62,433 nt of DNA, taken from contig JANXOM010000164.1 in NCBI GenBank assembly GCA_025353585.1, positions 1-62,433 on the forward strand. Direction: 5' to 3'. Source of the DNA: Deltaproteobacteria bacterium. Its GTDB lineage: Bacteria > Myxococcota_A > Polyangia > Haliangiales > Haliangiaceae. Every line of letters starts with the position of its first letter. Position 1 is the stretch's first letter. A program made the translations under genes and the position numbers. Below, piece by piece: positions 43,171 through 61,347 of the stretch. Under the pieces are notes generated by a model that saw only the letters and a program-made list of their open reading frames with translations, did no database searches and was not told the origin of the DNA.

Positions 43171-45108
43171 GTGAACGAGATCGAACCAGACCTCGGGTTG
43201 TCGTTGCTCGCCCAGGGCCGCGGCGACGACACGATCGTGTTCACTCGGGTGCGCATGTTCCAGATCGCGCGAATGGCGCCAGCGCTCTTCACGCAAGTCC
43301 AGAACCTGGATCTCGAGCAGACGTATTGCCTCTCGTTTGATTTCGCGGCGCCGCAAATGGCGCAGTTGCTCGTGCTGATGCCTCCAATGCTCGCGGAGCC
43401 GATGACGGCCGCGCTGGCGGCCCCTTTCCTGGAGCCGCACGTGTTCGATCTGAGCGAACACGCCCTCGAAGTGGATCTGCGCGCGCGAATCGGGCCCGCA
43501 CAGACCAACGACAATGAACGGTTCGCGCCGCTGGTGGTCGAATCGTTCGGCCCGCCATCAGGTTCGTACGGGTTTCGCTTCGAAGCAGCGACAACGCCCG
43601 TTGCGAATGCGAATCCACCGGCCGCGCCGCCGCCAGAGCCGCGCCCACCCCCAGCGCGAAAGGCGCGCCCGATCGAGCCGTTCCTCACGAGCGACCCTGA
43701 GGAGCAGGAAGATGCCGTGTGGCACGCGCTGATCCTGCGCGGCGCATTGACCAAGGACGATGCTGTTCGGGCGGCCGCTGCAACACTGCGCGAGCGCGGC
43801 GCGCTCGCTTATCAGCGGCTCGACTCGGCGGGTGAACTCTACCGAGCGATCCAGAAAGCCATCGACCGCAACGTCGCGGAGGGCTGCATGGACAGGCCAC
43901 AGCGTGGCTACGTACGTGCGTGCATCGAAGGGCCGGAACAGCTCGAGCGCCACGATTGGCAAGCCTTGCTCACCGAAGTGCTGCGCGACAGTCCAATGCC
44001 GCGCGTCGACGTCGTCCGGGCAGTCGCCGAACGCGCTCGCGACGTGGCTGGGCTCCCATTCGAGCGCCTGCGCGATGACGGCAAGATCGCAGTGGCGATC
44101 CGCGCGGCTATCAACGGCGCGCTCCGCAAGGATCTGGTCGTGGTCTACCGCGGCATCCTCACGATCCCGGATGACGCGAACGCAGTCGCGAACGAGCACG
44201 ACCTACCAGTTGCCAAGAACCGAACATCGGCAACGCCGGACGTGGCAGTCGCAAAGGCAGTTGGTCATGGTGTCCCGGTACTCGCCTTCTCGTGGGGCTA
44301 CTACGGATGGGGGAACCACACCCGCGAACTCGTCGACATGATGGATCGTGTCGAGGCGGCACGCGGGTTCGCTCCGCCTCTCTGGGTCGACGTGCGGCTA
44401 CGCCGACAAGTCCGTGCACTTGGATTCCGAGAGCGCGCATTCGAGCAACAACTCGGGCCAGACCGGTACGCCTGGCTGCGGGGACTCGGGAACCGCATGA
44501 TTGGCGACCGCGACGTCGCCGAGCCCACGCTCGACCGACCCGAGGACATCGACCTCCTACTCGAACGCATCACAACGGCCGCGGCGGGTGGCCGGCGAGT
44601 GATCTTCTTCTGCGCGTGCAAGTCACCGGTCGAACGGCACGTGTGCCACCGCGGGTTGGTCGTCGACTTGCTGGTGAAGACGGCCCGCCGACGCAAGTTG
44701 CCGATCGGTGTGCAGGAGTGGCCCGGTGGGACGCCGTCCGAGGTAACGCTCGAAGTCGACCGCGAGCAGATGGACAAGCTCGTCGCCCACAGCCTCGTCG
44801 AAGCGCAGAACGTTCGACTGTCTCTGCCAGCCGGGGTCGATCTCGTTCGCGCGGCCTCGCTGCCGCATCTGTCACTACTGCGTTGTCGTGAGGGTGACCG
44901 CGAGGTGACGGCGCTGTCGGGACCGGTCGTGTACACCGCGCATGGCTGGGTGTTCCCACTGTACGTCGTTCGGCCTTCCGCTCATGTCGACGTCGACGTG
45001 CGGAAGGGTTACCTGAGCGAAGTCAACGATCTCGAGTTGCAGAGGTTCGGCGCGCAGGAGCAGGCGGCTGTGCCGCCGTGGCTGCCAATCGCGCTGCATC
45101 GTTCATGA
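43171..45108 (+). CDS. Winged-helix/DUF488 fusion protein
   Basis: The 645-aa protein starts at the GTG at 43171. Residues about 1-150 are a non-recognised domain, then a Pro-rich linker (PPAAPPPEPRPPP). Two similar helical modules follow: EEQEDAVWHALILRGALTKDD to NVAEG (about 172-245), and HDWQALLTEVLRDSPMPRVDVV to RKDLVVVYRG (about 255-330). These look like winged-helix DNA-binding repeats. The C-terminal part (about 370-530) is DUF488-like: WVDVRLR, and IFFCACKSPVERHVCHRGLV with Cys481 and Cys492 in the CxxxK...CHR position. Its function is unknown; DUF488 proteins recur in defence loci. It converges with the methyltransferase operon and may be part of it functionally. Confidence 0.75.
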   Translation: MNEIEPDLGLSLLAQGRGDDTIVFTRVRMFQIARMAPALFTQVQNLDLEQTYCLSFDFAAPQMAQLLVLMPPMLAEPMTAALAAPFLEPHVFDLSEHALEVDLRARIGPAQTNDNERFAPLVVESFGPPSGSYGFRFEAATTPVANANPPAAPPPEPRPPPARKARPIEPFLTSDPEEQEDAVWHALILRGALTKDDAVRAAAATLRERGALAYQRLDSAGELYRAIQKAIDRNVAEGCMDRPQRGYVRACIEGPEQLERHDWQALLTEVLRDSPMPRVDVVRAVAERARDVAGLPFERLRDDGKIAVAIRAAINGALRKDLVVVYRGILTIPDDANAVANEHDLPVAKNRTSATPDVAVAKAVGHGVPVLAFSWGYYGWGNHTRELVDMMDRVEAARGFAPPLWVDVRLRRQVRALGFRERAFEQQLGPDRYAWLRGLGNRMIGDRDVAEPTLDRPEDIDLLLERITTAAAGGRRVIFFCACKSPVERHVCHRGLVVDLLVKTARRRKLPIGVQEWPGGTPSEVTLEVDREQMDKLVAHSLVEAQNVRLSLPAGVDLVRAASLPHLSLLRCREGDREVTALSGPVVYTAHGWVFPLYVVRPSAHVDVDVRKGYLSEVNDLELQRFGAQEQAAVPPWLPIALHRS

Positions 45109-45116
45109 CCACTTGT

Positions 45117-45770
45117 TCAAGTTGCTTTTAGAACGAGTGATTCGATGATCATCACAGCGACCGCGGCACGGTCTTGCGGGGAGAGTGCCATGACGCTCTC
45201 CACGAGGGCTACAGGGAGGCGTTCTGCCGCGCGCACTTCCGCATTCGACCGCCGTGCATCGACGGAATACAGCGCGCCAGGCTTCGCCTGACCGCCGCTC
45301 TTCACCGCCGTGCCGGAGGCCGCCTCGGCGGCCGGCGAACCCACCGCTTGTTTGACCACGACATCGGGAAACAGTCGTTCGCGGACCGCTCGCGGAAAAT
45401 CGCTCGGAGACCACTCCACGATGGTGGCCAGCTTCCATCCGGCATCAGCGGGATGGACGATGGCGACGCACGAGACCGACTTCTGCCAGCCCACGTTCGT
45501 CCCCCAATCGTCCACGAGCGTTGCGACAGCGCGGTCGTGCACGGCGCGACTCTCTAGCGAGAGGGTCAGCATTCCACCGGGAATCGTCATCGCCTGGGAC
45601 AGCTTGTTCTTCAATTGTTGGGACGGAGAGGAGCTCGTTCCGTAACTCTTGATCGCGCCGGTAGCCTCGAGCTGCTCCTCGAGAAAACGCTGCAGCTGCG
45701 TTTGCGCGGTACCCAGCTTGGCGTGTGCCAGGTCGAACCGCTGCTGCGCCTTATCTATGGCCCAGATCAC
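45117..45770 (-). CDS. Hypothetical coiled-coil protein cotranscribed with the methyltransferase
   Basis: The 217-aa product has an N-terminal helix MIWAIDKAQQRFDLAHAKLG, then TQTQLQRFLEEQLEATGAIK, with heptad-like hydrophobic spacing of a coiled coil. The middle (VSCVAIVHPADAGWKLATIV) is beta-like, and the C-terminus VALVESVMALSPQDRAAVAV is helical. I recognise no family. Its ATG overlaps the methyltransferase stop (ATGA), so it is translationally coupled and probably part of the same system, for instance a specificity, regulatory or scaffold subunit. It converges with the DUF488 gene, 8 bp away. Confidence 0.6.
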   Translation of the reverse strand: MIWAIDKAQQRFDLAHAKLGTAQTQLQRFLEEQLEATGAIKSYGTSSSPSQQLKNKLSQAMTIPGGMLTLSLESRAVHDRAVATLVDDWGTNVGWQKSVSCVAIVHPADAGWKLATIVEWSPSDFPRAVRERLFPDVVVKQAVGSPAAEAASGTAVKSGGQAKPGALYSVDARRSNAEVRAAERLPVALVESVMALSPQDRAAVAVMIIESLVLKAT

Positions 45771-47062
45771 TCGGTCGTGCTCATCCGTACGATGTGGGCC
45801 TTGAGGGCCGGAACAAATCCGTCCGGTTTCCCGAGCGTGCTCTTTTCAAAGCGGCTCAGAAATCCCTTTGCTGCTCGAAGTGACAGGTCGCGCGATTCGA
45901 AGCGAAGGAACGTGTGCAGCGGCTCCGGCACGATCGGCTCCGGCCACTCGGACACCCCCGACGCAACCACCGTCCCGTCCATCGACCACGCCGCTGAGGG
46001 CCACACTCGCGCTGTCATCGGTCGATCGAGGTCCGATCGGTATTTCCCGGGCTCGTTCAACCGGCCGCCGACCCACCCGAAGACCGGGACGCTCACAGCG
46101 TTCCCGACCAGTTTCCAGCGAGCGGTACTACTCTTCGCCGAACCGTTTACCGCTGGTTCGGTCCAGTTGGCATCGAAGCCTTGAAGCCGTTCGGCGTCCT
46201 GGATGCTGGGGGTGACGAACCGATGCTCCGCGCCACCGCGTGCAGGTAGTACGATCGCCGGAGGCGACGGAATTCCGAAGCCGGAGCCACCCTTCAGCGT
46301 CGGCACGGCGTTGGTTGCCCAGCCCAACCCGCGGGTCCCCTCCGTCCAGTAGAAGCCGCAAGCGACGCTCTTCGGTAGCTTCGCGTTGTCGTCGAAGAAC
46401 TTCCTCGGCCTGGCGTCATGACCGACGTCGTCCGCGAGCAATACGGCGCGCGGATCTTCGGTCCTCGAAGCGAGCACGAGTACACGCCGTCGTCGTTGCG
46501 GGACTCCGAACGAGCGCGAGTCGACGACGCGGTAGGCCCAGCGATAACCGCGGTTGCTAAGCTCGGTGGTGAGGAACCGCATCGCCTCGCCTCGGTCCAG
46601 CTGGAGCATGAACGGAACGTTCTCCAACAGCAGCCACCGCGGCTTGGACTTGTCGAGCAGCCGAAACACTTCCGAAACGAGGCCAGAACGGGAACCTCGG
46701 ATGCCCGCGGTCGCACCAGCTTGCGAGAGGTCCTGGCATGGGAATCCCGCCGAAATCAGATCGACCTTCGGCAGCGACTTCAGTTCGCGCACGTCACCCG
46801 CGAGAGCGATGTCCGGGAAGCGAGAACTCAAGACACGCCGAGCCGCGTCGTCCCATTCGCACATCAGCTGCGCGCCATGTCCCGCGCTTCCGAGCCCTAA
46901 CTCGACGCCCCCGATGCCCGCGAAGAGCCCGGCAACACGTAGCCCGCTTTGCGGGCCTTTCGCCGGCGCGCTCCACGAGAGACTGAGCTGGGCTCCTCTG
47001 CCGCCATCCATGGCATCTAGGATCGCATACCCCCCCGACATCGGAGAAGAGACATGGCTCAT
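45767..47062 (-). CDS. DNA (cytosine-5-)-methyltransferase
   Basis: The 431-aa C5 methyltransferase has motif I VAGLFAGIGGVELGLG (about 43-58), motif IV SAGFPCQDLSQAG with the catalytic Cys109, motif VI LLLENVP (about 147-149), motif VIII PQRRRRVLVLAS, and motif X RWKLVGNAVSVPVF. These transfer a methyl group from SAM to cytosine in double-stranded DNA. The target-recognition region lies between motifs VIII and X and cannot be decoded here. A G7 run sits about 9 codons in. It overlaps the downstream coiled-coil gene and is divergent from the Mig-like glycosylase gene (52 bp), giving a shared promoter region for methylation, repair and restriction genes. Confidence 0.92.
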   Translation of the reverse strand: MSHVSSPMSGGYAILDAMDGGRGAQLSLSWSAPAKGPQSGLRVAGLFAGIGGVELGLGSAGHGAQLMCEWDDAARRVLSSRFPDIALAGDVRELKSLPKVDLISAGFPCQDLSQAGATAGIRGSRSGLVSEVFRLLDKSKPRWLLLENVPFMLQLDRGEAMRFLTTELSNRGYRWAYRVVDSRSFGVPQRRRRVLVLASRTEDPRAVLLADDVGHDARPRKFFDDNAKLPKSVACGFYWTEGTRGLGWATNAVPTLKGGSGFGIPSPPAIVLPARGGAEHRFVTPSIQDAERLQGFDANWTEPAVNGSAKSSTARWKLVGNAVSVPVFGWVGGRLNEPGKYRSDLDRPMTARVWPSAAWSMDGTVVASGVSEWPEPIVPEPLHTFLRFESRDLSLRAAKGFLSRFEKSTLGKPDGFVPALKAHIVRMSTTE

Positions 47063-47114
47063 CTCTCGACGGTTTCGGCTAGCCTGTCAGCGCTCGGAGC
47101 CGTAGAAACGCCAC

Positions 47115-47870
47115 GTGACGCGGCCATCAGCGCAGAGACGGAAACGTCCCGGCCGGGGAGGCACCCTGGTCTCGCGCCTCGCCGATCGGCGGATCGTGCT
47201 GTTCAGGCGCAAGCTCCTGGCTTGGGCACGGCGCAAGGGGCGGCACTTCTTCTGGCGGGAACCTGGCCTGACACCCTACGCAGCGCTCGTCACCGAGATC
47301 CTGCTGACGAAGACCCGCGCCGAACTGGTCGCGACGGTCGCCAAACAGATCCTCGAGCGGTATCCGTCGCCGCCGGACCTCGCCTGCGCTTCGCCGAACG
47401 AACTCGAGGCAATGCTCTTCCCGCTGGGCCTACACCGAAAACGCGCAGCGGGGCTGGTGGCTTGCGCCCAGTACGTCATGGAGGCGCACGGCGGAGCGAT
47501 CCCGACGACCATTGAAGAGTTGATCGAGCTCCCCTCGGTCGGTCGCTATGCGGCGAACGCGATCGTGTGCGTTGTCTTCGACCAGCAGGTCGCTGTGCTC
47601 GACGCGAACGTCTCGCGGATCTACCAACGCTTTTTCTCGCTACCTGAACCACCCGAGCGGCTGGCCACCGCGCACGACCTCTGGGCGGTGGCGGCGCGAT
47701 TGCTCCCGCCTCGAAAGGCGAAACAGTTCAATTGGGCCATCCTCGACCTCGGCGGGTTGATCTGTACGGCGAAGGCGCCCGCATGCACGGTCTGCCCGCT
47801 TGTTAAGAACTGTGACCGGTTCGGTGTCCCACCTTCTACGCGGTCCCGACCGAACTCGTCCGCGCGCTAG
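47115..47870 (+). CDS. Mig-like mismatch (T/G) DNA glycosylase, HhH-GPD [4Fe-4S]
   Basis: The 251-aa glycosylase of the endonuclease III/MutY superfamily has YAALVTEILLTKTRAELVAT near the N-terminus, the HhH region ELPSVGRYAANAIVCVVFDQ with Tyr145, and the catalytic Asp163 in AVLDANVSRIYQRFF. The iron-sulfur cluster motif is CTAKAPACTVCPLVKNC (Cys217, 224, 227, 233; spacing 6-2-5). The Tyr in place of endonuclease III's Lys, the DAN motif and EILLxxT match Mig.MthI, a T/G-mismatch thymine glycosylase encoded next to a cytosine methyltransferase. The role is repair of deaminated 5-methylcytosine, replacing Vsr (inference). It starts at a GTG, 52 bp from the divergent methyltransferase, with the Z1 gene 61 bp downstream. 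Confidence 0.85.
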   Translation: MTRPSAQRRKRPGRGGTLVSRLADRRIVLFRRKLLAWARRKGRHFFWREPGLTPYAALVTEILLTKTRAELVATVAKQILERYPSPPDLACASPNELEAMLFPLGLHRKRAAGLVACAQYVMEAHGGAIPTTIEELIELPSVGRYAANAIVCVVFDQQVAVLDANVSRIYQRFFSLPEPPERLATAHDLWAVAARLLPPRKAKQFNWAILDLGGLICTAKAPACTVCPLVKNCDRFGVPPSTRSRPNSSAR

Positions 47871-47931
47871 CGAGCGCACGGTTGCGGGCGCGTGGCCGCG
47901 ATCTGTCGGGCCGGTTTGGTAGAGTGGCGAA

Positions 47932-50064
47932 ATGAGCGCTGTAGGGTCAGTCAGTGTAATCGAGGAGGGCGGGCCGGCACTTAACGTGGACGGGGCCTGC
48001 CTGCTTGGAACGTTGGAATCGCTCGGGGCCGGACCGAAGGGGATGCCAGCCACCGCGCTAATAAAAATCAAGGCCGACGCGCTCGATCTACTCGCGCGCG
48101 TGTGTACGGCGTACGAGTCGGTGGTGGCAAAAGGAGAAGTCGGAGCGACTGGCTCGGCCAGTGCCAACCAATCCGTTCCGGCTGCCCCGTGTACTGGTCT
48201 GCTCTACGGACGAATTCAGAGTGGAAAGACTGTCGCGATGATCGCGCTTGTCGCAGCTGCGATCGACAACGGGTTCCGAGTCGTGGTCGTACTGACATCC
48301 GACAACGTCAAACTCGTCGGACAGACCACCGATCGATTCGCGGCACTCGAGGGCCCCATCACCGTCGATGCGTTGCGGGCCGATGGCTGGGCGACCGATG
48401 ACAAACACATCGCGAAGTACATCGGGAAAGCCGGACTCGTTGTCATCTGCTCCAAGAACAGCACGCGCTTGGAAGACCTGATCGAATTCCTACACAAAGT
48501 CGGGGCGCCAGATTACCCGGCGCTGATTCTCGACGACGAGGCCGATCAAGCCACCCTCGACGCGAATCTCGCGCGAAGCAAGCGCAGTGACGACGTCGAC
48601 CCGACCGCGATCTACACGCGCGTTGCTCAAGAGTTGACGTCGACGCTGCGACACCACGTGTTCCTACAGGTCACCGCGACACCGTACGCGTTGCTGCTTC
48701 AATCTGTGGGAACCAAGTTGAGGCCATCGTTCACCCGTCTATTGGAACCAGGGGAGGGCTACACCGGGGGCGAGCGATTCTTCGAGCAGGAGCACGTCGA
48801 GGGCCCCAAGGCTCCGCTGGTCTTCGTGCCGGACGCGGAGTCGCAGGCAATTCTCGATGGCATCGACGAAGCGCCGACGGGGCTTCGCAACGCACTTGCC
48901 TTTTTCCTAGTGGCCGCAGCGGTCCAGTTCATTGCAGATCCCGTGACGGCAAAGGGCGGACAGAATTTCCTCTGTCACACGAGTCAACTCCGCGATCAGC
49001 ACGCGCAGCTAGAAAACCATGTTCGCGACTATCTCGAGAAAATCAGCAACGCCCTGGAAGCGAGGAAGGGCGAGCCGCTGGACAAGCTCACGCTGGCCTA
49101 CGACGAACTCGGCAAGACAATGCCCGAGCGCCCCCCGCTGTCGGTAGTGCTCGACCAGATTGTCAATCGACTCGTCAATCGAAAAGTGCTCGTGATGAAC
49201 GCAAAGCTCGGTGCCAGGCCCGAACCGAGCAAAGGACTCAACTTCATCATCGGTGGAAATATCATCGGTCGCGGTGTCACGATCGAGAATTTGCTCGTCA
49301 CGTACTACCTGCGTGAGCCGAAGACCGGACAGATGGATACGATGCTCCAGCACGCGCGCATGTACGGTTACCGACACAAAATCATGCCACTCACTCGCGT
49401 GTTCCTGCCGGAGCAACTAGCCCTGAGATTCCACGAGATCCATAAGATCGAGCAACGTCTGCGGCGCCACCTAGCAAGCGCCGACATGAGCCGCCCGATC
49501 GCGATGGAACGAGCCAAGAACCTCAACCCGACTCGCCGTGCGGTTCTAGACCCGACTTACATCGATGCTTTCGATGCGACGGATCAAGTGTTTCCGACGC
49601 ATCCCGATCTCAAGATGAAGCCCAAGGACCACGAAGCGATGACAGGGCGCATCAAGAACCTCGTGGGAGGCCAGTTCACGCTCGACTCCCAACTCGAGCC
49701 GATCTCGTTCGACGAGCTCCTTGCGCTCGTCGAAGACCTCCCCTTCAACGAGAAAGAGACCTCGAATAGTTGGGCGCCGACCGTTCTTCGAAAGGTTCTC
49801 GAGCATCAGCGAGAGCGCGTCAAAGGACGCGCGTACATCTACACGCGAAAGATGAGCCGCGAGATTAGCCACTTTATCGGCGGCGCGCTCAGCAGCAAAG
49901 AACTCGCAGAGATCCGGGAACAGGACGGCCCGGTGATCTGCGCTTTCCGAGACGACGGGAAGAAGATCCGCGGCGAACGGGCGAGCGCGTACTGGTATCC
50001 GACGCTGGTCTTCGATCGCGACATGAAGTCGTTGCTCATCAACGTCACGCCCGATGTCGAGTAG
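47932..50064 (+). CDS. Z1-domain NTPase/helicase-like protein
   Basis: The 710-aa protein is a P-loop ATPase of the superfamily-2-like Z1 group. It has Walker A GRIQSGKT (93-100), Walker B LILDDEAD (about 198-205), VTATPY (247-252), and the second-lobe motifs FIIGGNIIGRGVTIENLLVT (around 440-456) and QMDTMLQHARMYGYRHKIMP. Q-S-GKT and R-G-x-T-x-E are the Z1 landmarks. Z1 proteins occur in restriction-modification loci with DUF4420 nucleases, 5mC methylases and MORC-like ATPases; they probably translocate on or remodel DNA. The next gene overlaps its last 11 bp. The C-terminal 200 residues have no recognised domain. Confidence 0.9.
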   Translation: MSAVGSVSVIEEGGPALNVDGACLLGTLESLGAGPKGMPATALIKIKADALDLLARVCTAYESVVAKGEVGATGSASANQSVPAAPCTGLLYGRIQSGKTVAMIALVAAAIDNGFRVVVVLTSDNVKLVGQTTDRFAALEGPITVDALRADGWATDDKHIAKYIGKAGLVVICSKNSTRLEDLIEFLHKVGAPDYPALILDDEADQATLDANLARSKRSDDVDPTAIYTRVAQELTSTLRHHVFLQVTATPYALLLQSVGTKLRPSFTRLLEPGEGYTGGERFFEQEHVEGPKAPLVFVPDAESQAILDGIDEAPTGLRNALAFFLVAAAVQFIADPVTAKGGQNFLCHTSQLRDQHAQLENHVRDYLEKISNALEARKGEPLDKLTLAYDELGKTMPERPPLSVVLDQIVNRLVNRKVLVMNAKLGARPEPSKGLNFIIGGNIIGRGVTIENLLVTYYLREPKTGQMDTMLQHARMYGYRHKIMPLTRVFLPEQLALRFHEIHKIEQRLRRHLASADMSRPIAMERAKNLNPTRRAVLDPTYIDAFDATDQVFPTHPDLKMKPKDHEAMTGRIKNLVGGQFTLDSQLEPISFDELLALVEDLPFNEKETSNSWAPTVLRKVLEHQRERVKGRAYIYTRKMSREISHFIGGALSSKELAEIREQDGPVICAFRDDGKKIRGERASAYWYPTLVFDRDMKSLLINVTPDVE

Positions 50065-51034
50065 CGCCGAGCTCGTCACGACGCTCCGCGAAGCCTGGCG
50101 GACCGAGACGGTCGGGGCGGTAGACGACTACGCCCTCGTCGCACGCGTTCGCCAGTGCTACGGCGCCATCACGCGCGACGGACTTCCCGCTCTTGTCGTC
50201 CCACTTGCCGAAGTAGACTCGCGTGCCATCAGCAAACGCGCGGCGGGCTGCGAGCTGCGAGCGATCAGAGCAGCGCGATTCCGCTATGGCCAGGAAGAGT
50301 GGGAAGGCGCCGCAGCTGCGATCGTTTGCAACGATATCGACGTCACCGAAGCCTTCTCCGTTCTCGCGGTGGACATTGCTACCCGCCTACCCGAGCTGGC
50401 ATCGTGGGAGCAGATTGCGGAGATCGTGGCCGAGTGGCAGGCGCTACTCGCATCCGCAGCACGTCCGAGCGCCGAGCTCGAACTAGGTCTGTGGGGCGAG
50501 CTCTGGCTTGTATACCACTCGTCGGATGCCGCAACTCTCGTTGCTGGCTGGCGAGGACCGGAGCGCGACGCCACGGACTTTTTCATCGACGGCGTCGCCG
50601 CCGAGGTGAAGGCTTCTCGCTATGCTCGGCAACATCACCTTTCGCTGTCACAGGTCGGTGCTCCCACGGGAATGAATCCGTCGTTCCTGCTTTCCTTGTG
50701 GGTCAAACAAGACCCGGTGAGGGGCGTGACCGTAAAGGACCTTGTCGAAGGTATCGAACTCGTCGTGGTCGACCGAGCTGCACTCTTACGCGGACTTCTA
50801 AAGGCGGGCTACTCGCGCAACTCGAGTCACGCCTACAACACGCGTTACGTCCTTCTGGCGGAGCCAGAGTGGTATCCGACGTCCGAAGTCCCCACCATTC
50901 GAGAGGCCGATCCGGGCGTTTCGAACGTACGGTACCAAGTCTTACTCGACGAGGAACGCGCTGTCGACGCCGCGAAGGCGGAGGAATTGTGGCGGCACTT
51001 TCTGGGGCACCCATTCGACCACGAGGAACAATGA
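50054..51034 (+). CDS. PD-(D/E)XK nuclease-like protein (DUF4420)
   Basis: The 326-aa product has DATDFFIDGVAAEVKASRYA, where Asp172 or Asp175 with Glu184 and Lys186 (ExK) make the restriction-endonuclease active site. The preceding ELELGLWGELWLVYHSSDAA is the DUF4420 conserved helix. The family is found next to Z1 proteins in restriction-modification systems and supplies the DNA cleavage activity (inference). It starts inside the Z1 gene (11-bp overlap) and ends in an ATGA overlap with the SAP-repeat gene, so the three are one translationally coupled unit. Confidence 0.88.
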   Translation: MSSSAELVTTLREAWRTETVGAVDDYALVARVRQCYGAITRDGLPALVVPLAEVDSRAISKRAAGCELRAIRAARFRYGQEEWEGAAAAIVCNDIDVTEAFSVLAVDIATRLPELASWEQIAEIVAEWQALLASAARPSAELELGLWGELWLVYHSSDAATLVAGWRGPERDATDFFIDGVAAEVKASRYARQHHLSLSQVGAPTGMNPSFLLSLWVKQDPVRGVTVKDLVEGIELVVVDRAALLRGLLKAGYSRNSSHAYNTRYVLLAEPEWYPTSEVPTIREADPGVSNVRYQVLLDEERAVDAAKAEELWRHFLGHPFDHEEQ

Positions 51035-52257
51035 GACTCGCAGATTTGCTTGCCGACGTGGCCCGCGACGACTTGCTGCGAATGGCGCGCGAGGAAGCTC
51101 ACGCCGAGGAAAATCTAGGGGACGCTCAATTACGAGCGACGATCGAAGGCGTGCTGCGAAGCCATCGGTTCCTGCAAGACTTCACGTTCAATCGGCAGCC
51201 GCCGACATTTGCGATGCTGGCGCTCTTGCTCGAGGCGGACGACTATTCGCTGCCCGTCGCCCAGTTCCCGTCGCTCGTACAGGCAGAGACGACCCGCATC
51301 TGTGTCGCGGTCGACGCCGGCCTTGTCGTAGGTCGCGACGACCACCTTCGCGTCTATCGGAAAGTGCTCCACCTCGCTCGTAGCAACGACAATCAGATCG
51401 ATGCACTGGAAGCGTCCATTCTGGTCGTCCTTCGGCACGAGCTCGGCATCGCGCAAGCAGAGCATTTTCTCATCGAGCATCACGCGGACTTGCGCGAGTT
51501 CTGGCGCACGCCGCATCTGTTCGAGCGCGAATTCGGAGCGTTGACCGCAGCTGGGATTCTTTTCGTTCGCGAGGGTCGCGTGTTGATTCCGAAAGACCAG
51601 GTCGGAACGGTACGACGGGTCATCGGACTCGACATGGCGCGCAAGGACGCATCGCGGCTGTTCGGATACTTGTCGAACACCGAGCTGCACGACGCGCTGG
51701 CTGCTATTTCGTTGCCGACGAGCGGCAACAAAGACGATCGGATCGCGCGACTGATCACGAACATGGTCCAACCGCGAGCGATGCTCTTGCTTCGCCAAAT
51801 CGGCATCGATCGGCTGAAGGAACTTTGCCGCGAACTAGGGGCTGCCGTGTCGGGCTCCAAAGAGGAGATCGTAAGCCGGCTGATCGACTACGTCAGCGCC
51901 GACAAGGACGTTGCGGCCACTCCCGATCCACCCGAGAAGGTTCGCGAGGCACGCCGTTTAGAGCGCGCTTCGTTCGGCTCGCTCTTCGACTTGCTTCGAG
52001 CGCACGAGCTCACATCGGTGTTGATCGAGTTCGACTTGAAGCGGTCGGGCACCAAAGAAGTTCAGATCCAGACGCTCTGGGAAGCGGAGCGAGCAGAGGC
52101 GACACTGCTAGGCTGCCTTGGCTCCCCGGACATCGAGGGGCTTCTGCGTCGGGCGAACCTTCGGACGAACGGTCCGAAAGCCGAGCGCATCGAGCGGCTG
52201 GTCGCGAACTTCGAGGGCAGCTCGGAACCGTCGACCGGACGCTCACGCGCGGAATGA
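51031..52257 (+). CDS. Protein with multiple SAP-like repeats
   Basis: The 408-aa protein is the third gene of the Z1 operon and overlaps the nuclease gene by 4 bp (ATGA). The N-terminal 200 residues are helical (RLADLLADVARDDLLRMARE, VGTVRRVIGLDMARKDASRL) with no recognised domain. From about 214 on there are four SAP-type units (helix, loop, helix). They are around LHDALAAISLPTSGNKDDRI, LKELCRELGAAVSGSKEEIV, LTSVLIEFDLKRSGTKEVQI and IEGLLRRANLRTNGPKAERI. SAP motifs bind DNA, typically AT-rich or duplex ends. It could be the DNA-targeting or clamp subunit of the restriction complex. I know of no named system with this protein. Confidence 0.72.
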   Translation: MRLADLLADVARDDLLRMAREEAHAEENLGDAQLRATIEGVLRSHRFLQDFTFNRQPPTFAMLALLLEADDYSLPVAQFPSLVQAETTRICVAVDAGLVVGRDDHLRVYRKVLHLARSNDNQIDALEASILVVLRHELGIAQAEHFLIEHHADLREFWRTPHLFEREFGALTAAGILFVREGRVLIPKDQVGTVRRVIGLDMARKDASRLFGYLSNTELHDALAAISLPTSGNKDDRIARLITNMVQPRAMLLLRQIGIDRLKELCRELGAAVSGSKEEIVSRLIDYVSADKDVAATPDPPEKVREARRLERASFGSLFDLLRAHELTSVLIEFDLKRSGTKEVQIQTLWEAERAEATLLGCLGSPDIEGLLRRANLRTNGPKAERIERLVANFEGSSEPSTGRSRAE

Positions 52258-52505: not shown

Positions 52506-52550
52506 TGACGTCAATTACATACACCCATCAACGACAACTACATCGCCCCA
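52506..52550. repeat. Left terminal inverted repeat of the IS
   Basis: It starts TGACGTCAATTACAT and contains ACGACAACTACATCGCCCCA at 52531-52550. This aligns with the reverse complement of the right end, with mismatches mainly in the outer copy. Confidence 0.7.
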
Positions 52551-53449
52551 TCGGCCTCGTCGTTTGACTGGGTTCGGTTCTTGGTCTTCGTCTGGGTAGC
52601 TGTCGCTGTGGGGATGCCTTTCGCGGTGAGGGTTGGGGCGGCGGGCGTAGTTGTCGTCGGCAGGTCGGCTGCCGGTCCTTGGGCGGCGCGTTCCGAGTGT
52701 GCATGTTCGACGCGGATGCTGGTGCCCGTCATCTCGAGGATCACGGAGTGGTGGACGATGCGGTCGATCGCGGCAGCGGTGGTCATCGGGTCCTTGAAGA
52801 TCCGGTCCCACTCGCTGAATACGAGGTTGCTGGTGATGATCACAGAGCGCCGCTCGTAGCGCTCCGCGAGAAACGTGAACAAGACCTCCATCTCGTCGCG
52901 GTTTTGTTGGACGTAGCCGATGTCGTCGAGGATCACGGCGTCGAAGCCATCGAGAATCGCGAGCTCCTTCTCGAGACGCAGGTCGCGCTTCGCCGAGAGC
53001 AGCCGCTGCACGAGCGCGTACGTCGCCGTGAACAGCACGCGATAGCCGCGCTGGATCAGCTCGTGGCCGATCGCGCAGACGAGGTGAGTCTTGCCGCGTC
53101 CTGGTAACCCGAACGCGAGCAGATTGTCGCCGCGCTCGACGAAGCCGCCCTCGCACAGTGACGGCAGCTGCTTGAGCACTTTAGTCGGCAGCCGCGCGCG
53201 CTGGAGCGTCGCGAGTGTCTTGTCGCGCGGCAGCTCGGACTCTTTGAGATAGCGCTCGAGCCGCCGGCGGCGGCGCTCAAGGCTCTCGAGCTCGACGAGG
53301 TGATGCAGGTAGCGCTCGAACGTCCAGCCCTCGCGCTCGGCGAGCCGCGCGATCTCGTCGGCGTGTCGGCTGATCGTCGGCAGCTTGAGCGCGCGCAGCA
53401 TGATCGTCAGCGAGGCGAGCGGAGGCGCCGAGGCGGCGATCGTCGTCAT
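52538..53449 (-). CDS. istB: IstB-like ATP-binding helper protein
   Basis: The 303-aa AAA+ ATPase of IS21 elements has Walker A FGLPGRGKTHLVCAIGHELI, Walker B DAVILDDIGYVQ, and the sensor region SVIITSNLVFSEWDRIFKDP. The N-terminal helical domain matches IstB (ERLLHHLVELE-like YLHHLVELESLERRRRRLER). IstB assists IstA in target capture. Its ATG overlaps the istA stop (ATGA). The C-terminal 45 residues are low-complexity Thr/Pro/Ala and run into the IS end. Confidence 0.95.
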   Translation of the reverse strand: MTTIAASAPPLASLTIMLRALKLPTISRHADEIARLAEREGWTFERYLHHLVELESLERRRRRLERYLKESELPRDKTLATLQRARLPTKVLKQLPSLCEGGFVERGDNLLAFGLPGRGKTHLVCAIGHELIQRGYRVLFTATYALVQRLLSAKRDLRLEKELAILDGFDAVILDDIGYVQQNRDEMEVLFTFLAERYERRSVIITSNLVFSEWDRIFKDPMTTAAAIDRIVHHSVILEMTGTSIRVEHAHSERAAQGPAADLPTTTTPAAPTLTAKGIPTATATQTKTKNRTQSNDEADGAM

Positions 53450-54954
53450 GCGGCGGCCTCGACGAGCAAGGCATCGTACGCGCTGAGATCCACGACCGAC
53501 GGCGCGAGCAGCGGCACCGCGATGCTGCTCGGGGTGGCGATCATCGCCTTCACCGCGGCGGACGTGATCGCGCTGCCCGCCATCTGCAGCAGCGAGAGTG
53601 CGACGGCGACATCGGCTTCCATCGTGCTCGCCGCGAGGTGCAGGATCCGGAGATACTCGAGGTCGCCCTTGATGCCGTGATGCGGCGTCTGGATCGCGTC
53701 GTACGCCGCGCGGAACACGACCGAGGGGAACATCTCCTCGCGATACACGTAGCGTGCGAACGCGCCGGGCTTGCGGATCAGCGACCAGATCACGTGCCGG
53801 TAATCAACCCGATGCAGATTGCGTCCGCGCAGCCGCTCGCACGCGAGCTGAAGCTCATCGGCGAAGTGAACCTCCAGCCTGTCCTCGAACAGCCGGACCC
53901 GTACCCACTCGCCGATCAGGCGTGACGGCACCGAGTACGCGCAGTGCTTGATCCGCACCGTGCTCCAGTCGCTGACGCGCACCTGCTCCTCGACATACTC
54001 CGGCAACTTCGACACCGCCAGCTCGCGCATCGCCGCGAGATCTTCGGCCACGCGCGTGCCGCGATTGCCATTGGCTTTGCGCGCGACCTGGTCGACGAAG
54101 TCTTGCCACGCGTCGATCGAGTCGAAGTCACGACTACCGCGGAGCAGCAGCGCTTGCTCGAGTCGGCGCTTGAACGCGCCATTGGCTGCCTCGACGTCGC
54201 CGTTTTGCTCCTTGGCGCCGACGGCCGTCGTCCGCGGCGTCATCCCGAAGTGCTGCATCAGCGCGACGTACTCGGCATTGAACGGTCGCTTGCCGTCGGC
54301 GAAACACGCCCGCTGGCCGTCGGGAATGCGATGGGTCGCTGCCGTCGAATTATCGGTCTGGTGGTAGCGCGGCACGCGGCCGAGCTGGAACAGCGACCGC
54401 TGCACGCCCTTGCGCAGCGCCGCCATCGACTCGGAGAGGCACACGGTCGCCCACTGCCAATTCGAGTACGGCAACACGAGCACGCACAGCAGGTGGGCGA
54501 ACACCTGCCCGGCGATCGTGACCGCAAGCTCCATCGTGCTCGTGAAGTCCGTCTGGGCCGCCTCGCCGGCGCGATGCAGCTGCGCCAGCGTGATCAGCTG
54601 CTCGGGACCACGCGCAGCGCGCCAGTGACGCACCCGCCGCTGCAGCGTGCGCAGCTGGCCGTCGGCGTAGCGCTCGGGGTGCTGCTCCTGCAACAGCTCG
54701 AACAACGTCTTGGCCTCGAGCTCGGGGGTCTGCGCGAGCCGCTCCTCGATCTCCGGCCAGTGCGCCTCGAACGGATCGCTGCGCGTCCGCCACTCGCGAG
54801 GCGTCACTAGCTCCGACGGCAGCTTGCCGTCGGCCACATATCGCCGCGCGGTCTTCCTGTCCATGCCCGCTTTCAGCGCGGCCTGCCCGATGCGCCCGTG
54901 CTTGCTCATCTCTTCCATCAGTTTCCTCACTTGCGCGTCGCTCGCTGGTCGCAC
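53446..54954 (-). CDS. istA: IS21-family transposase IstA
   Basis: The product has about 502 aa from the GTG at 54954, which follows a GGAGAGG. It has an N-terminal helix-turn-helix (GRIGQAALKAGMDRKTARRY) and an rve-type DDE catalytic core: Asp in GEAAQTDFTSTMELA, Asp in PRYHQTDNSTAATH, and Glu in NGDVEAANGAFKRRLEQALL. These are the IstA hallmarks. It cuts and joins the element ends with IstB. The frame is intact, so the element may still be active. Confidence 0.95.
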   Translation of the reverse strand: MRPASDAQVRKLMEEMSKHGRIGQAALKAGMDRKTARRYVADGKLPSELVTPREWRTRSDPFEAHWPEIEERLAQTPELEAKTLFELLQEQHPERYADGQLRTLQRRVRHWRAARGPEQLITLAQLHRAGEAAQTDFTSTMELAVTIAGQVFAHLLCVLVLPYSNWQWATVCLSESMAALRKGVQRSLFQLGRVPRYHQTDNSTAATHRIPDGQRACFADGKRPFNAEYVALMQHFGMTPRTTAVGAKEQNGDVEAANGAFKRRLEQALLLRGSRDFDSIDAWQDFVDQVARKANGNRGTRVAEDLAAMRELAVSKLPEYVEEQVRVSDWSTVRIKHCAYSVPSRLIGEWVRVRLFEDRLEVHFADELQLACERLRGRNLHRVDYRHVIWSLIRKPGAFARYVYREEMFPSVVFRAAYDAIQTPHHGIKGDLEYLRILHLAASTMEADVAVALSLLQMAGSAITSAAVKAMIATPSSIAVPLLAPSVVDLSAYDALLVEAAA

Positions 54955-55007
54955 CCGGCCTGCCTCTCCTTCTCGGAAAGAGCACGCCGTCGACCAATGA
55001 GGACGCC

Positions 55008-56108
55008 TCAAAGTGGGGCGATGTAATTGTCGTCGGTGGGGCGATGTAATTGTCGCTCAGCAAGCGAGGAGCCATCGGGCTGCACATAGTGCACCGTCCC
55101 CCAGATGTCCTCAATGCCACCGTTCCCATCCGCGTCGAGTCGCACGCCGACGTCGAAGTAGGGCTGCGTGTACGCGACCGCGATCCTGTTCAGCGCGTTC
55201 CTACCCTCGACGCCGTCCATGCATCCGAACAAGATGTCGGCCGTGCTGACGGCGCGGACCACTGGGGGCGTGAGCAGGTTTGCCTGATAAATGTCCACGG
55301 TCGTTCCCAGTCCCATGCGCGCGATCGCGCGCGCCATCACCTCAACCTTCGGCCGGCGCAGCGCTGCATCCTCGGCGGTGGCGTTCAGGATGCGGTTCAA
55401 GTTCTTGTGCTCGATCAGATCCGGATCGACCAAGATCAAGTGGCCAACGCCCAGGCGCGCGAGCTGTTCGATCACGATGCTGCCGGTGCCGGAGCAGCCG
55501 ATGACCGCGACGCGCAGGCGGCGCATCATGGCGAAGGTCGCCTCGCCAAACACCTGGAGCGTTCGCAGGTGCCCGGCCTGATCGCCTTCTGGTGGACGCG
55601 CCGACGGCCAGATCTCGATGTCGTCGCCGATCTTTCCGACGTGGGCGAACGGCGTCGCGATCAGCTGGTCGTTGAACCACCGGCCGAAGGTCCGCCCATC
55701 GGGCAGCATGATCGCGCTCCCGTGGGACTCGCTGGTGTCGAGGAACGGGAACACTCGCTCGAACAGCTCGCGGTCGCTGTCATCGTCGGTCGACGAGAAC
55801 GTCTCGTAGCCGGTCGGGTGGCTGTGGATCTTGACGATCGCCATGCGCTTGGTCGCAGTCTCGGTGAGCAGGTCGAGCAGATACGGGTGCGTCCTCCACG
55901 TCACACGTGACGGCGTGCGCACAGGACAGTCCGCGTGTGGGATGACTACGACGCGGTGGACGACGAGGCGTTGAACCTCGGCGCCTTGGATTCCGCGCGC
56001 TCGTCCGCACAGGAGGAGTGCGACGGACTCGAAGCCGTCGCCTGGGAACAGGTGCTCCTTTAGCATTTTGTGCTGGCGATCGGTCATCGTGAGCGTGATC
56101 GCGGGCAT
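55008..56108 (-). CDS. JAMM protease-E1 (ThiF) fusion, 3' end cut by the IS
   Basis: The 366-aa product has an N-terminal JAB/MPN domain with a complete JAMM motif: Glu27, His95 and His97 in KIHSHPTG, Ser105, and Asp108. An E1-type ThiF domain follows, with the ATP-binding loop VAVIGCSGTGSIVIEQLARL (about 200-219) and LILVDPDLIEHKNLNR. Such fusions activate a ubiquitin-like protein and trim its C-terminus. The native sequence stops at about residue 349 (VHYVQPDGSSL). The last about 17 residues, AERQLHRPTDDNYIAPL, are encoded by the IS end. Family E1 domains normally run another 60-120 residues, including the adenylation-domain C-terminus. It is probably inactive or impaired. Confidence 0.85.
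   Translation of the reverse strand: MPAITLTMTDRQHKMLKEHLFPGDGFESVALLLCGRARGIQGAEVQRLVVHRVVVIPHADCPVRTPSRVTWRTHPYLLDLLTETATKRMAIVKIHSHPTGYETFSSTDDDSDRELFERVFPFLDTSESHGSAIMLPDGRTFGRWFNDQLIATPFAHVGKIGDDIEIWPSARPPEGDQAGHLRTLQVFGEATFAMMRRLRVAVIGCSGTGSIVIEQLARLGVGHLILVDPDLIEHKNLNRILNATAEDAALRRPKVEVMARAIARMGLGTTVDIYQANLLTPPVVRAVSTADILFGCMDGVEGRNALNRIAVAYTQPYFDVGVRLDADGNGGIEDIWGTVHYVQPDGSSLAERQLHRPTDDNYIAPL
55014..55059. repeat. Right terminal repeats of the IS
   Basis: Two identical 19-bp copies of TGGGGCGATGTAATTGTCG (55014-55032, 55037-55055) are spaced 23 bp apart. The element ends ..GCTCA at 55059. Confidence 0.8.
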
Positions 56109-56110
56109 GG

Positions 56111-56518
56111 CTACGTCCTCAGTTCCTTGTCGAGCCACTCGCGGACGAGCAGCATGTGGCGCTCGATGTTGTCGACACCGGGGATCCACGGGTTCTGCGG
56201 CGTGCGGTGGCGCGACCACTGCTGCCACTCGCGGCCGTCGAACGACTGGCGGCCGTCGGTCGCACCGATCCGCTTGCCGCTCTTGAGGCTGAGGGCCGGG
56301 TAGAAGAACACCATGTCGATCTGGGAGTCCGGGTAACCGGCCTCCAGGCGCAGGAACAGATCCGCGTCGGCCACGTTGTATCCATCCGGGACGGCGTACT
56401 TCAGGACGACCAAGCGCCGCACGTCAGCTTCCCGCACGGCCTCCCACTCGAGGCTGAGGCGGTTGTCGAGGAAGTCGCGATCCTCCTCGGGCATATCGAA
56501 CTGGCGGCGGCGCGTCAT
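56111..56518 (-). CDS. E2-like protein of the prokaryotic E2 family E type
   Basis: The 135-aa product contains LVVLKYAVPDGYNVADADLF, YPDSQIDMVFFYPALSLKSG and EWQQWSRHRTPQNPWIPGVD. These are the conserved blocks of E2-like proteins that accompany multi-ubiquitin and JAB-E1 genes in bacteria. The fold is a UBC-type ubiquitin carrier. There is no cysteine anywhere in the sequence, so a classical thioester-forming active site is absent. The WSRH segment is strongly conserved in this family in my recollection. It lies 2 bp after the UBL gene and 2 bp before the E1 gene, as one operon. Confidence 0.82.
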   Translation of the reverse strand: MTRRRQFDMPEEDRDFLDNRLSLEWEAVREADVRRLVVLKYAVPDGYNVADADLFLRLEAGYPDSQIDMVFFYPALSLKSGKRIGATDGRQSFDGREWQQWSRHRTPQNPWIPGVDNIERHMLLVREWLDKELRT

Positions 56519-56520
56519 GA

Positions 56521-56808
56521 TCACCCCTCCGTCTGGTCGAGCGGCAGCGTCTCGAAGCGCTCGACGCCAGGTGCCGTCAGGTCGACGTGCTCGTCGGGCT
56601 TCACCCGTTGCGGCTTGCCGCTGACGAACTCGTACGCCGCGTTCTTCGCCGGGTCCTTCTTGGCGAGCTTGAGGATCTCGGCTCCGGAGATCGTCGGCTT
56701 GGGCCAGTCGAAGAAGTCCTTGTTGACGCGGATCTTGTAAGGGCCGGTGGTGGGGACCGGCTTGCCGGCCTTGGCGTACTCTTGGATGTCGATAGATTCG
56801 GTGCTCAT
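56521..56808 (-). CDS. Ubiquitin-like (multiubiquitin-type) protein
   Basis: The 95-aa product starts MSTESIDIQEYAKAGKPVPT. It then has the beta-grasp unit YKIRVNKDFFDWPKPTISGA, EILKLAKKDPAKNAAYEFVS and VKPDEHVDLTAPGVERFETL, the pattern of the bacterial multiubiquitin domain in a single copy. It ends LPLDQTEG, with an exposed C-terminal Gly suited to activation without processing. It is predicted to be activated by the linked E1 and attached to targets. An AGGA lies before the ATG at 56808. It is the first gene of the leftward cassette, opposite the sigma-like factor. Confidence 0.85.
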   Translation of the reverse strand: MSTESIDIQEYAKAGKPVPTTGPYKIRVNKDFFDWPKPTISGAEILKLAKKDPAKNAAYEFVSGKPQRVKPDEHVDLTAPGVERFETLPLDQTEG

Positions 56809-56868
56809 GGTGGTGGTCCTGGGCGGGGGAAAAATCCGCCGTACGCACCGATCTGCTCCACACGAACG

Positions 56869-56930
56869 CGTTTCTGATCACGACGCTTTCGTCCTGCGAT
56901 TACCAGGAGTTATCCTCATGATCAGAAACG
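56869..56930. promoter_or_regulatory. Nested symmetric dyad in the divergent promoter region
   Basis: Perfect 12-bp arms CGTTTCTGATCA (56869-56880) and TGATCAGAAACG (56919-56930) flank a second dyad TCCTG (56892-56896) and CAGGA (56904-56908) with the same centre near 56900. The whole lies between the UBL start (56808) and the sigma-factor start (56961). It could be a dimer-of-dimers operator, or two oppositely oriented copies of a promoter for the adjacent sigma-like factor, one facing each operon. Confidence 0.7.
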
Positions 56931-57548: not shown

Positions 57549-57952
57549 GCGACAAGAATACTCGCGAGCTAGAACTGCTCGACGAAGCGCTCGATGATGT
57601 CGAGGCTACGCCCGAGCAGATCGCGTCGACGATGTCGCGGCTATCGACTACCCCCGCGGTCTGGGCGGCCGAGGTGCGCGCGCGCGCTGACGCGGCGAAG
57701 GAGGCCGCGCGAGTGGCGCGCCTCCAAGCGATGAGGCTGGGGTACCAACAGGATCGCGAGCGCTACGAAGCTCGTCGGGTCGAACCTGTCCGGTCGAAGA
57801 CCGAGTTGCAGCTCGTATTTCGTGACCTAATCGCAAGGGCGCCACAGGCGGTCAGCGCGAACTTCCACAAGTACGTGGATGCTCCTGCCGAGGAGTTGGC
57901 GGAGCAGATCCGCGCGTTGCGCCACCTGCTCGGCCTCGACGATGATCAGTGA
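57545..57952 (+). CDS. Hypothetical protein of the sigma/ImmA operon
   Basis: The 135-aa product is helical and highly charged (DKNTRELELLDEALDDVEAT, VRARADAAKEAARVARLQAM, VDAPAEELAEQIRALRHLLG). It could be an anti-sigma-like or adaptor protein, because it sits between a sigma factor and a protease. This is a guess from position only; I recognise no family. Its ATG overlaps the sigma stop by 4 bp and its end overlaps the peptidase start by 11 bp, so the three proteins are probably made in fixed ratio. Confidence 0.65.
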   Translation: MSDKNTRELELLDEALDDVEATPEQIASTMSRLSTTPAVWAAEVRARADAAKEAARVARLQAMRLGYQQDRERYEARRVEPVRSKTELQLVFRDLIARAPQAVSANFHKYVDAPAEELAEQIRALRHLLGLDDDQ

Positions 57953-58730
57953 TCGCCGTCAGCGCGATCCAATGCCCGGCGTCGCCGTTGCGCGAGCGCG
58001 CGAGGTGCTTTCCGAGCTTGGGCTCAAGCACCCGACCGAGATCGAGATCGAAGCGATCGCACATGCTCGTGGAGCACTGGTGCGCGCCGCGCCCACGCGG
58101 GGCGCGCGCGCCAATCTGCTGCGCATGGGCGATCGCGCCATCATCTCCGTCGACGATCTCCCGACAGACCAACGCCGATGGGCGATCGCGCACGAGCTCG
58201 GCCACTTCGAGGTTCACCCCGACGTCAGCTACTTGGGTTTCTGTACAGGCGAAGACCTGCGCGCCGATTACCACCGCAGTGGCCGCGAGCCAGAGGCCAA
58301 CGCCTTCGCCGCCGAACTGTTGATGCCCGAGGCGCTGTTCCAGAGGGCCGTCGACAAGGTGGAGAAGCCGGCGTGGAGGGAGGTGCAGGCGATCGCCGCC
58401 GGTTTTCAAGTGTCGTTGACCGCTACTGCCCACCGTTTCATCGAGTTGTCGTGGGAACGTGTCGCGCTGTTCATCTCCCAAGAAGGCAAGGTCGTGAGCA
58501 ACCGAGGTCGGCGTGACTTCGGTACCCGCCTGAAGAAGAGCGAGCCGTTGCACAGCGACAGCCTGGCCCACGACTACTTCGCGAAGAAGAAGGTGTGGCC
58601 GGGCGCGCAACACGTCTCCGCCCAGGCGTGGTCGCCGACCGCTCGCGACTCCGACGAAGTGATGGAGGAGGTGTTCGTGATGGAGGCGTACGGCAGCGTC
58701 CTCAGCCTGGTGTGGTGGCCGGCGCGATGA
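57942..58730 (+). CDS. ImmA/IrrE-family metallopeptidase
   Basis: The 262-aa product has the zinc-protease motif WAIAHELGHFEVHP (HExxH) and the downstream EPEANAFAAELLMPEALFQ, where the Glu is the third metal ligand. These are the ImmA/IrrE (formerly DUF955) hallmarks. Family members cleave repressors or regulators in response to DNA damage or phage. Here the likely target is a component of the same operon or of the UBL system (inference). It ends 3 bp before the stop of the convergent phosphoribosyltransferase gene. Confidence 0.9.
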   Translation: MISDRRQRDPMPGVAVARAREVLSELGLKHPTEIEIEAIAHARGALVRAAPTRGARANLLRMGDRAIISVDDLPTDQRRWAIAHELGHFEVHPDVSYLGFCTGEDLRADYHRSGREPEANAFAAELLMPEALFQRAVDKVEKPAWREVQAIAAGFQVSLTATAHRFIELSWERVALFISQEGKVVSNRGRRDFGTRLKKSEPLHSDSLAHDYFAKKKVWPGAQHVSAQAWSPTARDSDEVMEEVFVMEAYGSVLSLVWWPAR

Positions 58731-58733
58731 GCG

Positions 58734-59450
58734 CTAACTGAGGATGATCGAGACGTCCAACTCACGGTCGGTCTCGTCGTACTCGATCTTGAAGGTCCGC
58801 GCCTTGGCCGCGTCCTCGTACGGCTGCGAGTCCGTCACGGCGACCGCGAATGCCGCCGTCGGCTTCGATGCACCTAGCAGCTTGTCGAGAGCTGCGATGC
58901 TCGCACCACTCTGAACGTTGTCGTCGACGAGCACGAGCGTGCTGCCGCGAGGAATCGGCGTCGACGTGCGCGCGAACCCCGCAAAGATCTCGTCGGCGGT
59001 GCGCCGGTTCCCCTTGGTCTTGCCCTCGACGGCCTTTCGCTGAACGGCAAGGACGGCGACGTGACCGAATCCAACTCCTGCGAGCGCGTGGCAGAGCCGC
59101 AACGTGCGGAACCGAGCCGTCTGGATCGTCGCTGCTGTCACTGATGAGGACGGGACTGGGACGAGCGTTATCGCGTCGGGATCCTCGACCTTGAAGAACT
59201 TCGTGAGCTTGTCGATCCGGTTCGCGAGCATGGCGGTTACGTATTCGATCGCGTTCGTTCGATCCACCTGCACCGGCCGATCGAGGGGATGTAGTCCGTG
59301 CTGGATCGATTGCTTTGGATTGGGGGGGTCACGGTTGTCCTTGACCGCGTAGACGAGGCCCCGCATCTGGGACGCGTTCGGCGTCCCCCGTGCAGCATCC
59401 GCACCCTTCGCATAGTAGGTGCCGAGCGCGAGTCCGCGGATCTTCCTCAT
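58734..59450 (-). CDS. Phosphoribosyltransferase-like protein
   Basis: The 238-aa product has the PRPP-binding motif STLVLVDDNVQSGASIAALD (DDNVQSGAS), with VPVPSSSVTAATI upstream as the phosphate-loop region. It resembles ComF-type or orphan PRTases; the substrate is unknown. Its ATG overlaps the DprA-like gene stop (ATGA). I recall PRTase and DprA-like pairs from computational defence-island surveys, where they are suspected to make or sense a nucleotide. It is the last gene of the operon. Confidence 0.78.
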   Translation of the reverse strand: MRKIRGLALGTYYAKGADAARGTPNASQMRGLVYAVKDNRDPPNPKQSIQHGLHPLDRPVQVDRTNAIEYVTAMLANRIDKLTKFFKVEDPDAITLVPVPSSSVTAATIQTARFRTLRLCHALAGVGFGHVAVLAVQRKAVEGKTKGNRRTADEIFAGFARTSTPIPRGSTLVLVDDNVQSGASIAALDKLLGASKPTAAFAVAVTDSQPYEDAAKARTFKIEYDETDRELDVSIILS

Positions 59451-60148
59451 GACGCGCGGGCGAAGTCGATCACATCGGCGGTCGTCCGAAGGACACGACC
59501 GAGAGGCTTGTCGTCGCCGATGAAACGCTTCGGCCAGGTGAGCTTGTCATTGTCGAGCAAGCCGGCAGCGATGAACACCGGGTGCCCGACCTGCACGCTC
59601 TCGGCAGCCTGATGGAGCGACCCACTCGTGTCACTTGCCTCGATGATTACGGTCGCCATTGCGAGCCGCGCCATGATCCGGTTGCGCTCGGGAAAGTTGG
59701 TCGGGACGAACTTGTCGCCCCAGGTAAACGGCGAGAGCAACAGGTGGTCCCGATAGATCAGGCGCTGAAGGTCGGCGTGCTTTGCCGGATACACCTTGTC
59801 GAGCGGTGTACCAACCACCGCGATGGTCTTGCCGCCGTGCTCGATCGCTGCGGTGTGCGCCGCGTAGTCGATGCCTTCGGCGAGGCCAGACACCACGACG
59901 ACCCCTGCTCGTGCGCAGTCTCGAGCAAGTTGCGCAGCGCGACGGCGGGCCTCGACCGTCGCCTTTCGGGCACCTACGATTGCGATGCGCGGCCGATCGA
60001 CGAGGGAGATGTCGCCGACCACGTGGATCTGCGGAAACTTGAGCAGGAGACCGTTGGTGACCCCGACGCGATCCGAACTGATCGTGACGACGTCACGTTG
60101 GTTCGGCGGCACGTACTCGTCCACGTGGCCCGCGGTCATGTCCAACAC
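59447..60148 (-). CDS. DprA/Smf-like Rossmann-fold protein
   Basis: The 233-aa product matches the DprA Rossmann core: RIAIVGARKATVEARRRAAQ, VVVVSGLAEGIDYAAHTAAI, KTIAVVGTPLDKVYP, and VIIEASDTSGSLHQAAESVQ. It lacks the DprA N-terminal SAM-like and C-terminal winged-helix domains. Such short Smf proteins (also LOG/SLOG superfamily) are thought to bind nucleotide signals or ssDNA in defence systems. The start is the GTG at 60148, or the ATG at 60139. It follows the XRE-ImmA gene by 73 bp and is coupled with the PRTase gene. Confidence 0.86.
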   Translation of the reverse strand: MLDMTAGHVDEYVPPNQRDVVTISSDRVGVTNGLLLKFPQIHVVGDISLVDRPRIAIVGARKATVEARRRAAQLARDCARAGVVVVSGLAEGIDYAAHTAAIEHGGKTIAVVGTPLDKVYPAKHADLQRLIYRDHLLLSPFTWGDKFVPTNFPERNRIMARLAMATVIIEASDTSGSLHQAAESVQVGHPVFIAAGLLDNDKLTWPKRFIGDDKPLGRVLRTTADVIDFARAS

Positions 60149-60221
60149 GCTGTGATCATAGCTGCCAGGTCTGACACCGGGCTATGCAACCACCAAACGA
60201 TTGAAGCGGGGCTCATGTTTG

Positions 60222-61334
60222 TCAGCCCACCCCACGACCTCGCCGAGCGCGATCGATCGGGATGATGTCATCAGGCAACTGCTCGCACGGCTCCCCAGTG
60301 ATCTCCGTGAACAGGACGGGTGCCCAGCCGAGTCGTTGGGCCAACTCAGCCGGCGTGATCTCACCCGCATCGTCGAGCATGCGAAGTGCGGTGGTGATCA
60401 ACTCAGGTTTCTCGTCGGAAATCAGATGTTCATCTGGTTCGTGGGTGTTCCACCCTCGCGCGGACATCTGCTTGTATGCACGTTGGTAGAATAGCGGGTC
60501 GATCAGGCGAAGTTCCCGGGCGCGCCGAATAATCGCCGAGAGGCTGACGCCCCAGCGTCGCTTCAGTTCTCGCAAGCTCTGCCACGACGGAGAAGACGTG
60601 CGAGGGAACTCGGCCACGAATGCTCGCCGGGGCAGAAGGAACGCACCAGCGAACGCATCCGCGGCCGGTTCTAACTCGGGTTTGGACGCGTCCTGCCCGG
60701 CGTGCATCACCAGATGTCCGCATTCGTGAGCAAGGTCGAATCGGAGACGCGATGGCGCTTGGGTTTCGGTGTTGCGAACCACCACGGCCCTCGCACCGGC
60801 GCGCGAGAACGCGTCGACCTTGCGACTGCTACCAAAGTCCGCGACGACAATCCCCGCGTTCTCGAGGACGCGCGTCATGTTCACAATTGGAGTGTCGACA
60901 CCTAGGCCCCAGGCGACCCGAGATTCCTCGGCGATCTCGTCGATGGGCTTTGAACCTTCAGGCACGTTCGGCACGTCCTCATCGGGGAAGTCGACATGTT
61001 GCTCGAGGAGAGAGACCAGCTCGGTGAGGAACGAGCCGTGCGCGAGGGCACGACTACGCGCATACATCGGCGTTGTTTTTCGCTTGCGGAAGAAGCACTC
61101 CTCGTCGCGGAACTCGTCGCTGATATGCCGCACGAAGAACTCGGGCTCGACGCGGAGCACGACGGACAGCGCCGCCAGCAGGTCGGCGCCTGGCTGTCTA
61201 GTGCCCGCTTCGAGCTGGCACACGAAGGCGGCAGTGACCTCCAACTGTTTCGCGAGATCTGCCTGTGTCTGTTCCTGAAGTAGTCGTGCGATGCGCACGC
61301 GCGCCCCGATGACCTTGGGATCCGTCTTCTCCAT
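60222..61334 (-). CDS. XRE helix-turn-helix/ImmA-IrrE fusion
   Basis: The 370-aa product has an N-terminal Cro/XRE DNA-binding domain (GARVRIARLLQEQTQADLAK, then VTAAFVCQLEAGTRQPGADL). A linker leads to an ImmA/IrrE peptidase domain with HExxH in LRFDLAHECGHLVMHAGQDA and the third ligand in EPAADAFAGAFLLPRRAFVA. The C-terminal 100 residues continue helical and may sense a signal. It is typical of one-protein repressor-protease switches. The start is the ATG at 61334. It follows the hypothetical gene by 13 bp and precedes the DprA-like gene, so it may control the operon. Confidence 0.9.
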   Translation of the reverse strand: MEKTDPKVIGARVRIARLLQEQTQADLAKQLEVTAAFVCQLEAGTRQPGADLLAALSVVLRVEPEFFVRHISDEFRDEECFFRKRKTTPMYARSRALAHGSFLTELVSLLEQHVDFPDEDVPNVPEGSKPIDEIAEESRVAWGLGVDTPIVNMTRVLENAGIVVADFGSSRKVDAFSRAGARAVVVRNTETQAPSRLRFDLAHECGHLVMHAGQDASKPELEPAADAFAGAFLLPRRAFVAEFPRTSSPSWQSLRELKRRWGVSLSAIIRRARELRLIDPLFYQRAYKQMSARGWNTHEPDEHLISDEKPELITTALRMLDDAGEITPAELAQRLGWAPVLFTEITGEPCEQLPDDIIPIDRARRGRGVG

Positions 61335-61347
61335 CGTCGGCGGCCTT

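Follow-up and report, generated by a model that had tools for sequence, protein, structure and literature searches.

CglI and NgoAVII are ATP-dependent restriction-modification (R-M) systems with M, R, and N genes (PMC4267653). Here, we describe a myxobacterial gene cluster related to these systems that is encoded on contig JANXOM010000164.1 (the window, meaning the whole stretch of 62,433 nucleotides that was analyzed), which originates from the 8.0-Mb draft genome of a Deltaproteobacteria bacterium (GCA_025353585.1). The cluster comprises genes for a 5-methylcytosine DNA methyltransferase, a glycosylase related to those of mismatch repair, an ATP-driven motor, a DUF4420 nuclease, and a SAP-repeat protein (Table 1), which are predicted to jointly cut unmarked foreign DNA. 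The motor grouped on the Neisseria N-protein side of the tree (100/99). Motor, nuclease, and SAP protein were also found as a trio in other myxobacteria, next to quite different methyltransferases. Because the trio recurs in this way, the cluster likely represents a new subtype among bacterial DNA restriction systems, namely a hybrid with a SAP subunit. An earlier note made from the sequence had reported this gene cluster; its observations were confirmed overall and its interpretation is supported in part.

The E-D-ExK residues of the nuclease were kept in all five of the sequences aligned. The structure model of the SAP protein (predicted local distance difference test, pLDDT, 85.8) contains four three-helix SAP-like units, and SAP and winged-helix chains were among the matches of this protein on a second look. 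Its family comprises at least 132 proteins, the window's own included, and has no match in PADLOC or NCBIfam; a conserved subunit family of this size is thereby added to restriction. None of the PF13589 matches in the five genomes was located at the SAP locus (other GHKL families were not searched); the earlier note had seen no MORC-like GHKL ATPase here.

The 217-amino acid (aa) protein had been described in the earlier note as the product of a coiled-coil gene coupled to the methyltransferase. Its model (pLDDT 83.7) is instead an alpha/beta fold with helices at both ends and not a plain coiled coil. The protein has no match in Pfam, PADLOC, or NCBIfam, and a homology search recovered the window protein itself and six homologs. 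A profile of these seven showed that all 26 SAP homologs longer than 480 aa carry this domain in their C-terminal portion (50-103 bits, among the homologs listed). A search with the domain, which covered proteins of about 330-1060 aa, yielded 127 proteins, and the 120 of these that were listed all carry PF02037. The SAP protein is therefore the only partner of the 217-aa domain seen among the matches listed. For the closest relative, both the SAP protein (72%) and the 217-aa protein (64%) are encoded on a 268,825-base Kofleriaceae contig, most likely one and the same. The remaining four SAP-type loci yielded no 217-aa protein, which is therefore an optional part of the system. A possible homolog of the domain in L036 (E 0.017) was too weak to be used.

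The methyltransferase is the only PF00145 match in the window's genome, and its putative target-recognition stretch is common to four Vsr-linked relatives. A like methylase is partnered by Vsr in four loci versus a Mig-like glycosylase in the window, which amounts to a natural swap experiment in the repair of 5-methylcytosine deamination. Vsr (PF03852) had 0 matches across the window's genome, the earlier note having seen none at the locus, and a second repair gene was looked for and its absence confirmed.

Four Cys residues are conserved in the R-M-linked glycosylases, and a profile of six of these proteins recovered MIG (PDB 1kea) as its best PDB match (188 bits, with MutY at 160 or less). 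By itself, however, the window glycosylase scored slightly better to E. coli MutY than to MIG (120.7 vs 109.2 bits), and the NCBIfam mutY model scored it at 161 bits, as might be expected of an ordinary MutY-type adenine glycosylase without a link to methylation. Such an identity is nevertheless very improbable, given that the cut-off of that model is 286.5 bits, that MIG ranks first by 28 bits with the family profile, and that the 251-aa protein carries DAN and TKT at the places of DGN and QQT in E. coli MutY and occupies Vsr's place beside a like methylase. The Mig-like assignment proposed earlier thus holds with the six-sequence profile but not with the single sequence. If of Mig type, the glycosylase would remove T from T:G mismatches.

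A recognition domain in the trio that corresponds to the methylase would be expected to make trios paired with like methylases resemble each other more closely in at least one region. Five loci were compared: the window, two with a like methylase (G401 and G119), and two others (G020 and G224); G401 and G224 are among the window's kin and belong to its class. The window trio was no closer to the former pair than to the latter, and a sliding comparison revealed no clear block of likeness tracking the methylase; SAP differed little or in the opposite direction. DUF4420 past about residue 140 was slightly closer within the like-methylase group (by up to 0.11), which may be explained by the close pair G401-G119 (65%). 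This five-locus test is weak and leaves open, rather than shows, that the effector may be target-agnostic. With no region of the trio clearly tracking the methylase, which part reads the site becomes a testable question.

Table 1. Features of the cluster and its surroundings in the window.
Feature	Positions	Strand	Evidence
Winged-helix/DUF488-like protein, 645 aa	43171..45108	+	DUF488 below cut-off
Predicted alpha/beta protein, 217 aa	45117..45770	-	Homology to domain fused in long SAP proteins
5-Methylcytosine DNA methyltransferase, 431 aa	45767..47062	-	PF00145 6e-46; PADLOC MTase_II PDLC03324, 459 bits
HhH-GPD glycosylase of putative Mig (T:G mismatch) type, 251 aa, with 4 conserved Cys	47115..47870	+	PF00730; PADLOC PDLC03398
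ATP-driven motor	47932..50064	+	PF10593 1e-34; Helicase_II 269.5 bits (profile positions 43-608 of 621); trees
DUF4420 PD-(D/E)XK nuclease, 326 aa	50054..51034	+	PF14390 2e-26; 93 bits, cut-off 27
Winged-helix and SAP-repeat protein, 408 aa	51031..52257	+	PF02037 5e-16; 58.4 bits, cut-off 23.9; 3 stretches
IS21-type istB and istA	52538-55011	-	
JAB-ThiF (E1-like) and Prok-E2_E genes	55008-56881	-	Prok-E2_E: PF14462 4e-34
Two ImmA/IrrE-like peptidase genes flanking DprA-like and phosphoribosyltransferase genes	57879-61463		

G+C content was 0.58-0.68 from about 43 kb to the end of the window and mostly about 0.72 before, as for an acquired island. The 645-aa gene was not found in other SAP-type loci, and parts of its product turn up separately in other proteins; consistent with its earlier description as a DUF488/winged-helix flank, it is an island gene outside the conserved unit. 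Downstream of the SAP gene lies the IS21-type element, at which the reading frame of the adjacent E1-like gene stops; this gene may have been cut short by the element. Together with the Prok-E2_E gene, it resembles an operon for bacterial ubiquitin-like conjugation adjoining the restriction locus. The ImmA/IrrE-DprA-like stretch looks like further island or mobile-element cargo.

In common with CglI and NgoAVII, the window locus encodes a 5-methylcytosine methyltransferase and a Helicase_II motor, although the methyltransferases are distant (77 bits to the Neisseria one). The nuclease is of the DUF4420 PD-(D/E)XK type, whereas theirs is PLD; neither PLD nor B3 was among the Pfam matches of the seven genes at the locus. 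That the window might encode a PLD or an EcoRII-like enzyme was considered and rejected for lack of a Pfam match. The window locus further adds the SAP protein, the 217-aa domain, and the Mig-like glycosylase. Its predicted function is ATP-dependent cleavage of an unmethylated site. Collectively, the cluster joins two restriction branches that have been described separately, one represented by the studied motor of NgoAVII/CglI and the other by the DUF4420 nuclease found at MORC/MZA loci.
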